Assembly (NCBI GenBank): GCA_017448825.1
Contig: JAFSKR010000024.1
Location: forward strand, 1-50,599
Length of the DNA stretch: 50,599 nt
Direction of reading: 5' to 3'
From: Bacteroidaceae bacterium
Lineage (GTDB): Bacteria; Bacteroidota; Bacteroidia; Bacteroidales; Bacteroidaceae
Every line of letters begins with the position of its first letter. Position 1 is the first letter of the stretch. Shown here piece by piece: positions 4,454 through 50,599 of this stretch. The position numbers were made by a program, and so were the translations under genes. A model generated the notes under the pieces. That model made no database searches and was not told the DNA's origin. It saw only the letters and a program-made list of their open reading frames with translations.

Positions 4454-4522
4454 CGTGAGCTTTTGCCGCAGAAGCTCGTGAGCTTTAGCCGCAGAAGCTC
4501 GTGAGCCTTAGCAGCAAAGTCT
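4454..4522 (+). repeat. 23-base tandem repeat, three units
   Basis: Units at 4454-4476, 4477-4499 and 4500-4522, followed by a partial fourth. Units 1 and 2 differ at one base; unit 3 is more diverged. Each unit begins CGTGAGC and contains AAGCT/AGCTT inverted halves across unit borders. The array lies in the non-coding stretch 4349-4996. It shares its period, but not its sequence, with arrays at 18671, 35096 and 50246. Confidence 0.85.
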
Positions 4523-4660
4523 GTGAGCCAATAGAGCCTTCCGCCCCGAGGGAATGGAAGATGATGGTAGCGAGAGGGTGCACCGCCTCTGAAAAGGTTT
4601 GATTTTATATATCATTTTTGCCAAAATTTTGGTCTAAAGGTTTGAAAAGAGGGAGGAAGA

Positions 4661-7209: not shown

Positions 7210-7283
7210 AGCCTCTTGTCGGATTCGAACCAACGACCCCGAGATTACAAATCACGTGCTCTGGCCAACTGAGCTAAAGAGGC
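7210..7283 (-). tRNA. tRNA-Thr (anticodon TGT)
   Basis: A 74-base cloverleaf read leftward. The acceptor stem pairs GCCTCTT with AAGAGGC, the D arm is intact, the anticodon loop is TTTGTAA (anticodon TGT), and the T loop is TTCGAAT. No CCA is encoded. It begins only four bases after the end of the SRP RNA and must be released from a common transcript. Confidence 0.93.
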
Positions 7284-7287
7284 GGGT

Positions 7288-7383
7288 GGGTAAGCTGACT
7301 ACATCGCGCCGCTACAACCGAGTACCCTTGCTGCGGTCAAGCCCTGGGGGATTCCAAGGGAGCTGGCCGTATAGGACTTACCC
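7288..7383 (-). ncRNA. ffs: Signal recognition particle RNA (4.5S, bacterial small type)
   Basis: About 96 bases read leftward. The ends pair GGGTAAG with CTTACCC. The interior forms one long imperfect hairpin containing CCAGG on the 5' side and GCAGCAAGG on the 3' side, as in the Ffh-binding domain, and GATGTAG near the 3' end as in E. coli 4.5S RNA. The apex reads C-TTGA-C instead of the common GGAA tetraloop. Orientation is confirmed by a strong promoter just upstream (7418-7449). It is fused in transcription to tRNA-Thr, and ffh, whose product binds this RNA, lies 1 kb away on the other strand. Confidence 0.8.
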
Positions 7384-7417
7384 ATATTGCTCGGATGCTT
7401 TTTCCGTTAAGCGGGTG

Positions 7418-18616: not shown

Positions 18617-18670
18617 GCGCACAAACGTTTTTCCCGAAACATCTTTACTGGGAGCTTACACAACCTCTTG

Positions 18671-18739
18671 ACCGACGTGCCCCATGTCGGTCAACCGACG
18701 TGCCCCACATCGGTCAACCGACGTGGGGCACGTCGGTTT
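18671..18739 (+). repeat. 23-base tandem repeat, three palindromic units
   Basis: Units 18671-18693, 18694-18716 and 18717-18739, each beginning ACCGACGTG and ending with TCGGT plus two or three bases; the first two differ at two bases. Every unit is itself an imperfect palindrome, and the second with the third can form a 12-base-pair stem (CCGACGTGCCCC with GGGGCACGTCGG). The array may act as the terminator of the preceding operon. It shares only its period with the other three arrays. Confidence 0.88.
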
Positions 18740-18773
18740 TGAGGGGGCGAAATACAATTTATGGAGGTAAAGA

Positions 18774-34951: not shown

Positions 34952-34966
34952 ACATAACGAATTACA

Positions 34967-35006
34967 AAGAAAAGCGTAAACGAAGCAATTTGTTTGCGCT
35001 TTTCTT
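34967..35006. terminator. Hairpin, possible terminator
   Basis: Imperfect 17-18 base-pair stem (34967-34984 with 34990-35006; AAGAAAAGCG pairs with CGCTTTTCTT) and a five-base loop. No strong T-run on either side. It may insulate the PAP2 operon and its repeat array from the lipoprotein gene. Confidence 0.4.
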
Positions 35007-35095
35007 GCGAGGGGGACTTCACACGATAAAACGAGGTCTTTACAACAAACACCATGAAAACTCTATATGAAACCCTCTGAAAACACCTCCTCAGA

Positions 35096-35325
35096 AGACA
35101 CGAGCATGAGAGCGAAGTGATGACGAGCGTGAGGGCAAAGTGATGACGAGCATCGGAGCAGAGTGATAACGGGCAAGAGGACTCGGAAGACACGGGCAAG
35201 AGGCGGAGCAAGATACGGGCATGAGAACTCGGAAGACACGGGGCACAGTCTTCCGAGACGACGGGCATGAGGACGAGGAAGACATTGGCAACAGAGTTAG
35301 GAAGACATTGGCAATTGAGTTCGCT
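35096..35325 (+). repeat. 23-base degenerate tandem repeat, ten units
   Basis: Ten units of 22-24 bases (average 23.0) can be laid end to end, each starting A(G/T)(A/G)-AC and carrying a GGGCA or GAGCA core about six bases in. Unit starts are 35096, 35120, 35143, 35166, 35188, 35211, 35234, 35256, 35280 and 35303. Units are diverged from each other, so the array is old or under loose constraint. It lies immediately downstream of the leftward PAP2 gene, whose stop codon falls in the last unit. Between 34822 and 35095 I see only the elements listed separately. Confidence 0.8.
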
Positions 35326-36016
35326 ATCCTATTCCAAGCGTCATGGCGACAATGAGGACACAGATGTAATTGAAGAAGATGATGGTCATGAACGTATCGA
35401 GGTCGCTCTTAAGGTAACCTGATGATGTGAATTGTGCAGAGATGAGCCGCTTGGTACCTATACGCGGATGAACATAATGCTCCATTAGCCAATAAAAAAT
35501 CCAGCCGAGAAGAGCACCTATGGTGAACCCTACACAGACATCACCCAAATAGTGAACACCCAGATAAAGACGTGTGAAGGTTGTGGTGAGCGACCAAAAG
35601 AAAAGGGTGAAGGCAACCTTGCCGCTACGGAAAAGCCATGAGAGAAACATTGCCATGCACATGGTGTTGCAGGCATGGCCGGAAAAGAATCCAAAACGTC
35701 CCCCCCGATAGTTACGCACAACATCAACAAAATACATGAGTTGCGGGTCTTGGGTAGGTCGCCAACGTGCGACCATCGGTTTGACAAGTCCAGAACAGAT
35801 GCGGTCTGCTACGAATATGAGCAAAGCGATGGTGAGATACACCATGAGAGCCTCTTTCCAAGTGTTGTTCTTGAAAATGATAATAAGCAAGGTGAGGATG
35901 ACCAATGACCATGAGAAAGTGTCGGTCACAGTGTACATCACATTGTCCCAAAAAAGGCTGTCGCTGCCATTGATGGCAAGCGTAAGCTGATGGTCGAGTT
36001 CGTTGAGTTCGTTCAT
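35324..36016 (-). CDS. PAP2 family membrane phosphatase
   Basis: A 230-residue membrane protein with the three phosphatase motifs: KPMVARWRP (Kx6RP), FSGHA (usually PSGH), and RLYLGVHYLGD (Rx5Hx3D). The family dephosphorylates lipid phosphates such as undecaprenyl diphosphate or phosphatidylglycerol phosphate. Five to six helices are visible. Its start overlaps the batE stop by four bases, making it the last gene of the moxR-bat operon. The substrate cannot be decided from sequence. Confidence 0.9.
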   Translation of the reverse strand: MNELNELDHQLTLAINGSDSLFWDNVMYTVTDTFSWSLVILTLLIIIFKNNTWKEALMVYLTIALLIFVADRICSGLVKPMVARWRPTQDPQLMYFVDVVRNYRGGRFGFFSGHACNTMCMAMFLSWLFRSGKVAFTLFFWSLTTTFTRLYLGVHYLGDVCVGFTIGALLGWIFYWLMEHYVHPRIGTKRLISAQFTSSGYLKSDLDTFMTIIFFNYICVLIVAMTLGIG

Positions 36017-50245: not shown

Positions 50246-50337
50246 CTTCATCGCAATTACCTTATGCTCGTCATCGCAATTACCTTATGCTTGTTATCGT
50301 AATTACGTTAAGCCCTTCATCGTAATTACGCTGCTGA
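50246..50337 (+). repeat. 23-base tandem repeat, four units
   Basis: Units at 50246-50268, 50269-50291, 50292-50314 and 50315-50337, sharing ATCG(C/T)AATTAC. Units 1 and 2 differ at one base; 3 and 4 are more diverged. Same period as the arrays at 4454, 18671 and 35096, but unrelated sequence. Confidence 0.88.
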
Positions 50338-50409
50338 GGGTGGCATCGGCGCGGCGGCACGTATGTGTATCGTGCAATGTACAAATATAGGGAATCTTGG
50401 GGTTGCAAT

Positions 50410-50553
50410 GCTACAACGCTACAGTGCTACAGCTACAAATGCTACAGCGCTACAATGCTACAGCTACAAATACCACAGTGCTACAAATTGCTACAGTGCT
50501 ACAGCTACAAATACCACAGTGCTACAAATTGCTACAGCGCTACAGTGCTACAG
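50410..50553 (+). repeat. GCTACA-rich tandem repeat with 41-base period
   Basis: Short words GCTACA, GCTACAGTG and CTACAAAT alternate. A 41-base unit starting CAGCTACAAATACCACAG (50461 and 50502) is repeated twice almost perfectly. The ORFs that run through it only translate the repeat. Confidence 0.85.
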
Positions 50554-50599
50554 TTAAAAAAAGCAGGGACGAAAGAATGAAAAGTAATTTTTATATTTA

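Follow-up and report, generated by a model that had tools for sequence, protein, structure and literature searches.

Tandem 23-bp arrays in a Bacteroidaceae genome as probable non-autonomous hairpin elements under concerted evolution

Arrays and Genes of the Window

The window (the whole stretch of 50,599 nucleotides that was analysed) is contig 13 of a draft genome (G000) of 2.95 Mb in 75 contigs, estimated to be 86% complete. By diaminopimelate decarboxylase, the nearest named relatives are uncultured Bacteroidaceae/Prevotellaceae, many of them rumen-derived, at no more than 86% identity. Four tandem arrays are found in the window (Table 1), and a preliminary description had assigned all of them a period of 23 bases. 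TRF confirmed this period at each place (4454-4528, 18671-18737, 35100-35179/35169-35242/35276-35321 and 50248-50329). The ten units that had been counted at 35096 can be recognized as about ten 23-base blocks, but they are degenerate, several have drifted and TRF splits the array. The unit sequences had also been called unrelated, which holds for 18671 insofar as no match to the other three was noticed, but not throughout, since the consensus units of 35096 and 50246 (reverse-complemented) agree at 16 of 23 positions, as do the unit of the 35096 family in genome G019 and the 50246 unit, and the 4454 unit and that of another array of the same genome (L044:9730). The arrays had further been placed outside genes and near 3′ ends. 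This is true of 18671, which lies 55 bp past a stop codon, and of 35096, but 4454 is 469 bp beyond a 3′ end and 10 of 49 distinct arrays of the 18671 family overlap a called gene.

Table 1. Positions of the arrays and associated features in the window
Feature	Position	Strand	Basis or remark
23-bp array, three units CGTGAGCTTTAGCCGCAGAAGCT	4454..4528	unassigned	16/23 bases shared with array at L044:9730
F1 element with complementary ends ACCTCTTG ... TTTTGAGG	18661..18747	+	fold; end consensus from 49 arrays
F1 element, dialect a: three 21-bp palindromes ACCGAC-N9-GTCGGT, 23-bp pitch, loop of third inverted	18671..18737	+	TRF and units read directly
F5 leader: hairpin AAGAAAAGCGTAAAC ... GTTTGCGCTTTTCTT (by eye) and stretch common to copy at C6 (L032)	34966..35095	+
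F5 array, about ten degenerate 23-base blocks	35096..35325	+	copy of dispersed family
PAP2-superfamily gene, stop codon abutted by F5 array	35324-36016	minus
F6 array, four 23-bp units	50246..50337	minus	minus strand shares 16/23 bases with F5 unit

Rfam returned four matches within the window and none on any array. A Bacteroidales small SRP RNA gene adjoining a tRNA gene was seen at 7210-7390 on the minus strand, and a distinct array of GCTACA words (TRF periods 8, 31 and 41) lies at 50406-50560, close to the contig end.

The window arrays are not single cases, as the families of 35096 (F5) and 18671 (F1) are dispersed in the genome. The F5 array gave 15 BLAST matches in its own genome including itself, ten of the others being long with 92–98% identity. 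It occurs 19 times in G019 and weakly in G003 and G016, and was absent from the other 37 genomes searched. Long copies are located at contig ends (C14 at its start; C16, C21, C45 and C56 at their ends), so the draft assembly seems to be broken at repeats and copy numbers are lower bounds; short-read assemblies may lose repeat copies, and several contigs terminate inside repeats. F5 copies are preceded by differing upstream modules, three-unit palindromic elements among them, and one copy (L042) lacks 23 bp. By eye, the module upstream of the F5 array at L049 of G019 is a three-unit element with palindrome GGTGTGACTCAGACC and ends CCTCAAAA ... TTTTGAGG, and it occupies the place that an F1 element holds in some F5 copies of G000. 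When 52 units from G000 and G019 were compared, 123 of 1326 pairs agreed at 16 or more of 23 positions, versus 0.8 in shuffled sets; these pairs are mostly within families, with a few linking families.

Distribution of Repeat Lengths

Whether 23 bp is a special length was judged in a sample of 773,608 bp from the same genome, consisting of the window, 20 stretches mostly around repeat hits (378 kb) and 20 contig starts picked without regard to repeats (345 kb), together with stretches of related genomes. Array position was scored against gene calls that were longest ORFs, later codon-scored. Of 83 intergenic TRF arrays in the own-genome sample, 28 have period 23, while 3, 2 and 2 have periods 21, 22 and 24; in the contig starts alone, period 23 accounts for 12 of 49 TRF arrays. 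G019, of the same genus, has 15 of 34 intergenic arrays at 23 in a sample that was partly hit-selected. Period 22 is the mode in 46 loci of more distant genera (17 of 59 arrays plus three at 44, with two at 21 and three at 23), and the 39 arrays sampled from other Bacteroidales families form no clear peak, two of them being at 22, two at 23 and one at 46.

The peak persists when each unit sequence is counted once (grouping at 70% identity, with periods 44 and 46 counted as 22 and 23). There are 21 distinct intergenic unit clusters at 23 in the own-genome sample, compared with 2, 2 and 1 at 21, 22 and 24, and 17 clusters at 22 in the distant set, compared with 2 at 21 and 4 at 23. The pitch thus differs by lineage, with a ratio of 23-bp to 22-bp clusters of 21:2 in the one and 4:17 in the other (Fisher p 1.6e-6). 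A TRF-independent lag scan of the own-genome sample yielded 49 intergenic tandem runs, of which 20 fell at lag 23, and shuffled DNA gave none, which bears out the claim that the arrays are beyond chance; in distant and intermediate loci 18 of 41 runs fell at lag 22 (at most 0.5 runs per shuffled set). The broad distribution without a peak that would have spoken against a special length was not seen; the 23-bp peak is sharp and independent of sequence.

The preliminary description had also suggested a polymerase-like process that measures 23 bases. Two-copy arrays, the freshest kind of duplication, have no comparable peak, with the modal pitch in 6 of 26, versus 32 of 52 among arrays of 2.35 or more copies (Fisher p 0.0017; p 0.06 for the distant set alone). 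This speaks against a process making duplications of such length. In the 18671 family, the fixed length reflects how the element is built, as a 9+3+9 stem-loop plus two bases. This does not account for the near-equal pitch of other families and genera, whose spacing may be set by a bound protein, as had been suggested as well.

Palindromic units are concentrated at these periods: 25 of 75 at periods 22–24 versus 7 of 85 at other periods and, among intergenic arrays only, 29 of 93 at 22/23 versus 12 of 135 otherwise, repeated families being included in both counts. Hairpin-centre spacing is of little use as a measure of pitch because the linker between tandem palindromes forms a second dyad. 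Arrays of period 22/23 (or double) between co-directional genes are nearer the 3′ end of the upstream gene by 30 to 19 in the genus and by 12 to 1 in distant and intermediate loci, in a count for which 28 of 128 arrays fell outside called gaps. Of 63 own-genome arrays that a crude gene set scored as apparently in-gene, 13 have period 23 or 46.

The next commonest intergenic period of the genus is 14 (and 7), with several AT-rich AATTTTTCACTTTT-like copies (e.g., L058:6874, L060:40 and L062:47 among own-genome loci L029-L074). In Bacteroides acidifaciens (L165:5195-5355), the space that separates two co-directional genes is taken up by seven palindromic units of 22 bp, and the second gene starts like HisA by eye. 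Two Prevotella species have 22-bp arrays in a similar place (L176:15412 and L183:15391) with like arms GATTACA ... TGTAA and differing middles, a possible 22-bp counterpart of the dialects described below.

Architecture and Fold of the F1 Element

The F1 core was found at 91 sites in its own genome, versus none for the reversed pattern (one mismatch allowed). The units are 21-bp ACCGAC-N9-GTCGGT palindromes joined by 2-base linkers, and the spacing is 23 or 46 in 57 of 57 listed arrays, a count over all loci in which some entries are one site fetched twice; a lone neighbour spacing of 45 bp (G013, C18) occurs in a longer F1 hit list. With units counted by a permissive rule, 35 of the 49 distinct arrays have three units, 12 have four and two have five. 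At their ends, these 49 carry inverted repeats that are imperfect (consensus CTTCCACAACCTCTAA) and come close to perfect in L339, L342 and L343, and a CCTC left end together with a GAGG right end is present in 17 of them only.

The window copy with its ends is predicted to fold into a single long hairpin whose top is formed by the middle unit (-65.5 kcal/mol, z -8.6, none of 200 shuffles as stable). Departures from symmetry that allow G-T pairing are one-sided, i.e., confined to one strand, in many F1 arrays; across 28 palindromic arrays of periods 21–24, there are 39 G-T and 23 A-C departures. The one-sided departures agree with the direction of the nearest upstream gene in 18 cases and disagree in 10, and the evidence for an RNA form of F1 is mixed. 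A pattern that covers only dialects a and b of F1 had no match in viral_contigs.

Dialects Across Related Genomes

When the F1 palindrome was searched with its inner nine bases left free in 45 genomes of the same genus, 11 were rich in the element (at least 20 sites and at least fivefold over a reversed control) and most others were near background. Sites versus reversed control were 120 vs 8 in G012, 58 vs 5 in G000, 56 vs 7 in G013 and 53 vs 3 in G047. A genome is dominated by one or two palindrome dialects, and at shared sites neither the pitch nor the number of units changes. Among the matches listed, type b (GTCCCCGAC) makes up 44 of 50 places in G012 (the rest being one type c and five unrelated) and 32 of 44 in G013 (two of a minor palindrome and ten unrelated); type c (GTCGTCGAC or its inverse) prevails in G010 and G047, G003 holds types a and c, and the 26 places in G019 comprise 13 of type d (CACGACGTG-like), three b, one a and nine unrelated. 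In seven genomes the mean unit identity between arrays was 0.89 within a genome versus 0.77 between genomes, values into which the outer bases fixed by the detection pattern enter; copies are thus more alike within than between genomes, with the exception of G003 (0.76 within).

Arrays of different sequence at syntenic sites, which the preliminary description had proposed to look for, were found. The same gene is accompanied by another dialect in L057/L351, in L359/L362 and in the window/L283, where the right-hand neighbour differs, and genome pairs that share a dialect carry it at shared sites (e.g., L328/L348 and L320/L323). Arrays with 23-bp pitch were present in four of 22 loci at the PAP2 site and two of 26 at the gidB site, too few to convince alone, and it is the glycerate kinase site that settles the point. 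Loci around diaminopimelate decarboxylase showed no synteny with array sites.

The Glycerate Kinase Site

One F1 array sits inside a glycerate kinase family gene (PF02595). A search with its G000 protein gave a match in 34 of 45 genomes, and 21 genomes were compared at the site (four loci and 17 short regions from the better matches, a set that leans to carriers). In 13 of the 21, exactly 3 × 23 bp is found at one place in the gene, with five palindrome types: type a in G000; type b in G012 and G013; type c in G003, G009, G010, G016, G045, G047, G055 and G059; type e (ATCGCACCCGACGGGTGCGAT) in G057; and type f (near ATCGGTGTGGGGCACACCGAT) in G017. The array is missing in the other eight (G002, G019, G022, G024, G041, G042, G052 and G054). 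In all 13 carriers the reading frame of the gene passes through the array free of stops, although in 11 of them a stop occurs in another forward frame; the gene match of G003 contains one TGA. The flanks differ in length at a point ~30 bases to the left of the array.

Genomes of different type (49 pairs) are 0.60 identical in the array and 0.83 in the right flank, and genomes of the same type (29 pairs) are 0.82 identical in the array, slightly below the 0.87 of the flank. The 13 arrays align without gaps, and in this alignment both partners vary in 16 of the 27 stem pairs. The covariation score, which kinship of the sequences can inflate, was 0.313 versus 0.166 and was reached by none of 500 shuffles, with slid controls at 0.114 or less.

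Types e and f, which were met for the first time at this site, were predicted to be abundant in their own genomes, and this was borne out, with 47 sites in G057, 34 of them exactly e, and 55 in G017, where 11 are exactly f and 23 belong to a second palindrome; close neighbours are 23 or 46 apart. The same search gave 4, 0 and 1 sites in G000, G012 and G045, none of them e or f. In 10 of the 13 genomes, the dialect of the glycerate kinase site matches that of the genome's other arrays (for G016 and G055 on the basis of one other array each), so that sequence follows genome and not site. Of the remainder, G003 is mixed, G059 has type c here and type b at the one other array seen, and no other arrays of G009 were seen. 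A side match of the pattern for another dialect was a further palindrome, CGGACTGGAGCAGTCCG, with variants at 23-bp spacing in G000 (C59:35870-35932).

Discussion

We consider it probable (about 0.6) that the arrays are MITE/REP-like non-autonomous hairpin elements under concerted evolution. For F1, the reading is based on dispersed palindromes (91 core sites as 67-bp arrays without transposase coding capacity), fixed pitch, imperfect inverted ends, dominant dialects, covarying stems and persistence within a gene; by analogy, the same explanation may also hold for F5 and F6 and, in other genera, for the 22-bp arrays. A new palindrome would spread through a genome by in-register replacement of array blocks, either through ectopic gene conversion of one copy by another or because a putative transposase re-inserts the element in trans, while selection on the folded strand, as RNA or single-stranded DNA, would keep each unit palindromic. 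With blocks replaced whole, the pitch would be fixed, and it would stay so because a shifted unit would spoil the long hairpin and, within a gene, the reading frame. Several observations count against this explanation. Palindromes that differ as much as a and e do are hard to interconvert by homology alone. G003 has two dialects, G059 is mismatched, G019 is a mixture and there is a pair at 45 bp. The array of same-type genomes is slightly less conserved than its flank, and the right neighbour at L283 differs. The pitch common to unrelated families is also left unaccounted for.

That common pitch, and its dependence on lineage (p 1.6e-6), would be explained if the arrays were binding sites of a dimeric DNA-binding protein whose contacts hold neighbouring units about two helical turns apart and whose changes in specificity drive the change of dialect. 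Palindromic units suit a dimer, and dialects vary by genome as this would require, but we regard it as unlikely, given that several unrelated palindromes occur in one genome, that in-frame sites in a metabolic gene change too, that the many one-strand G-T departures within arrays better fit a folded strand than a duplex site and that there is no candidate protein. An enzyme making tandem duplications of fixed length blind to sequence, e.g., through paired nicks 22 or 23 bases apart and fill-in, would likewise produce a sequence-independent and lineage-specific peak; the lack of a comparable peak in two-copy arrays (6/26 vs 32/52, p 0.0017) and the inheritance of arrays at orthologous sites make it improbable. 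Ordinary slippage minisatellites of no special length deserve next to no credence. Whole units are indeed gained and lost, as in the F5 copy without 23 bp, but the sharp peak over 21 distinct unit sequences, the usual unit number of three and the dialects common to dispersed loci are against it, and as a full account slippage is ruled out by the period distribution.

Short dispersed palindromes with inverted pairs, hairpins and families specific to a genome are also what true REP/REPIN elements mobilized by RAYT, a Y1 tyrosine transposase, would show, and a PF01797 match is full-length in G019 and weaker in G003. This origin is nevertheless improbable in our judgement, as six of the eight element-rich genomes searched (G000, G002, G009, G010, G012 and G013) gave no PF01797 match, a search in which G002 is 99% and G000 86% complete and which covered neither G045 nor G047 nor G059, and as palindromes e and f are without GTAG or CGTC.

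The reading as MITE/REP-like elements can be set beside known systems. The nearest is BrickBuilt, a MITE of Porphyromonas gingivalis, of the same bacterial order, with 23-nt tandem repeats at 19 intergenic loci in one strain, predicted stem-loops and inverted ends; a single repeat family, in 1 to 22.8 copies, lies there between a leader and a tail, with IS5-like ends GAGACCTTTGCA (PMC4596501). Tandem repeats of 22, 23 and 41 nt are mentioned for strain W83, and BrickBuilt parts are reported by default BLAST from P. gingivalis only, with homologues later in P. gulae (PMC4596501). The likeness is one of description: F5, with ten 23-nt blocks and dispersed copies, shares the tandem 23-nt intergenic units, whereas here there are many unit sequences, usually three units in F1, copies within genes and dialects. 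Near four F5 copies, the end GAGACCTTTGCA matched at best at 9 or 10 of 12 positions in the forward direction, while shuffles average 8 and reach 10 or 11. From the 22/23-bp peak, BrickBuilt may be one case of a wider Bacteroidales class.

REP, BIME and REPIN sequences are dispersed palindromes of 20–40 bp that form mosaics and hairpin-forming inverted copies, lie mostly after genes and sometimes within them, and comprise several families per genome (Refs. PMC3733652, PMC3116915, PMC2817692). F1 resembles them as dispersed hairpin-forming palindromes with inverted copies, mostly after genes and some within genes, but its exact pitch of 23 contrasts with their head-to-tail dimers, which are stated there to be absent or rare in most families (PMC3733652). 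It also differs in that dialects e and f lack the GTAG/CGTC tag, the CGTC of a to d lying inside the stem, and in that RAYT was not found in most element-rich genomes searched. Rickettsia palindromic elements are palindromic repeats in-frame within protein genes; here the insert is a tandem block of 3 × 23 bp whose palindrome depends on the species at the same site. The DNA uptake sequence dialects of Neisseria are short repeats that differ by species and are common across the genome, while the present arrays have far fewer copies and are tandem palindromes. No description of dialect replacement at orthologous sites, or of an order-wide 22/23-bp peak, was recognized in the open-licence literature searched, which was judged mostly in outline.

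A stronger proposal, which is tentative and which we hold to be possible but doubtful, is that scattered palindromic arrays are actively rewritten to a new dialect genome-wide, at fixed sites and even in-frame, while the length and number of units are held. The length would be taken from a ruler that acts in trans (23 for this genus and 22 for other Bacteroidales) and not from descent of one sequence. Such a ruler, if true, would also account for the pitch common to unrelated families. A dispersed repeat of ~70 bp that is replaced at orthologous sites in step with most other copies in its genome, at fixed length, would be a clear case of bacterial concerted evolution. The glycerate kinase site, with its codons as a control, would provide a yardstick for the mode of replacement and for finding the enzyme responsible.
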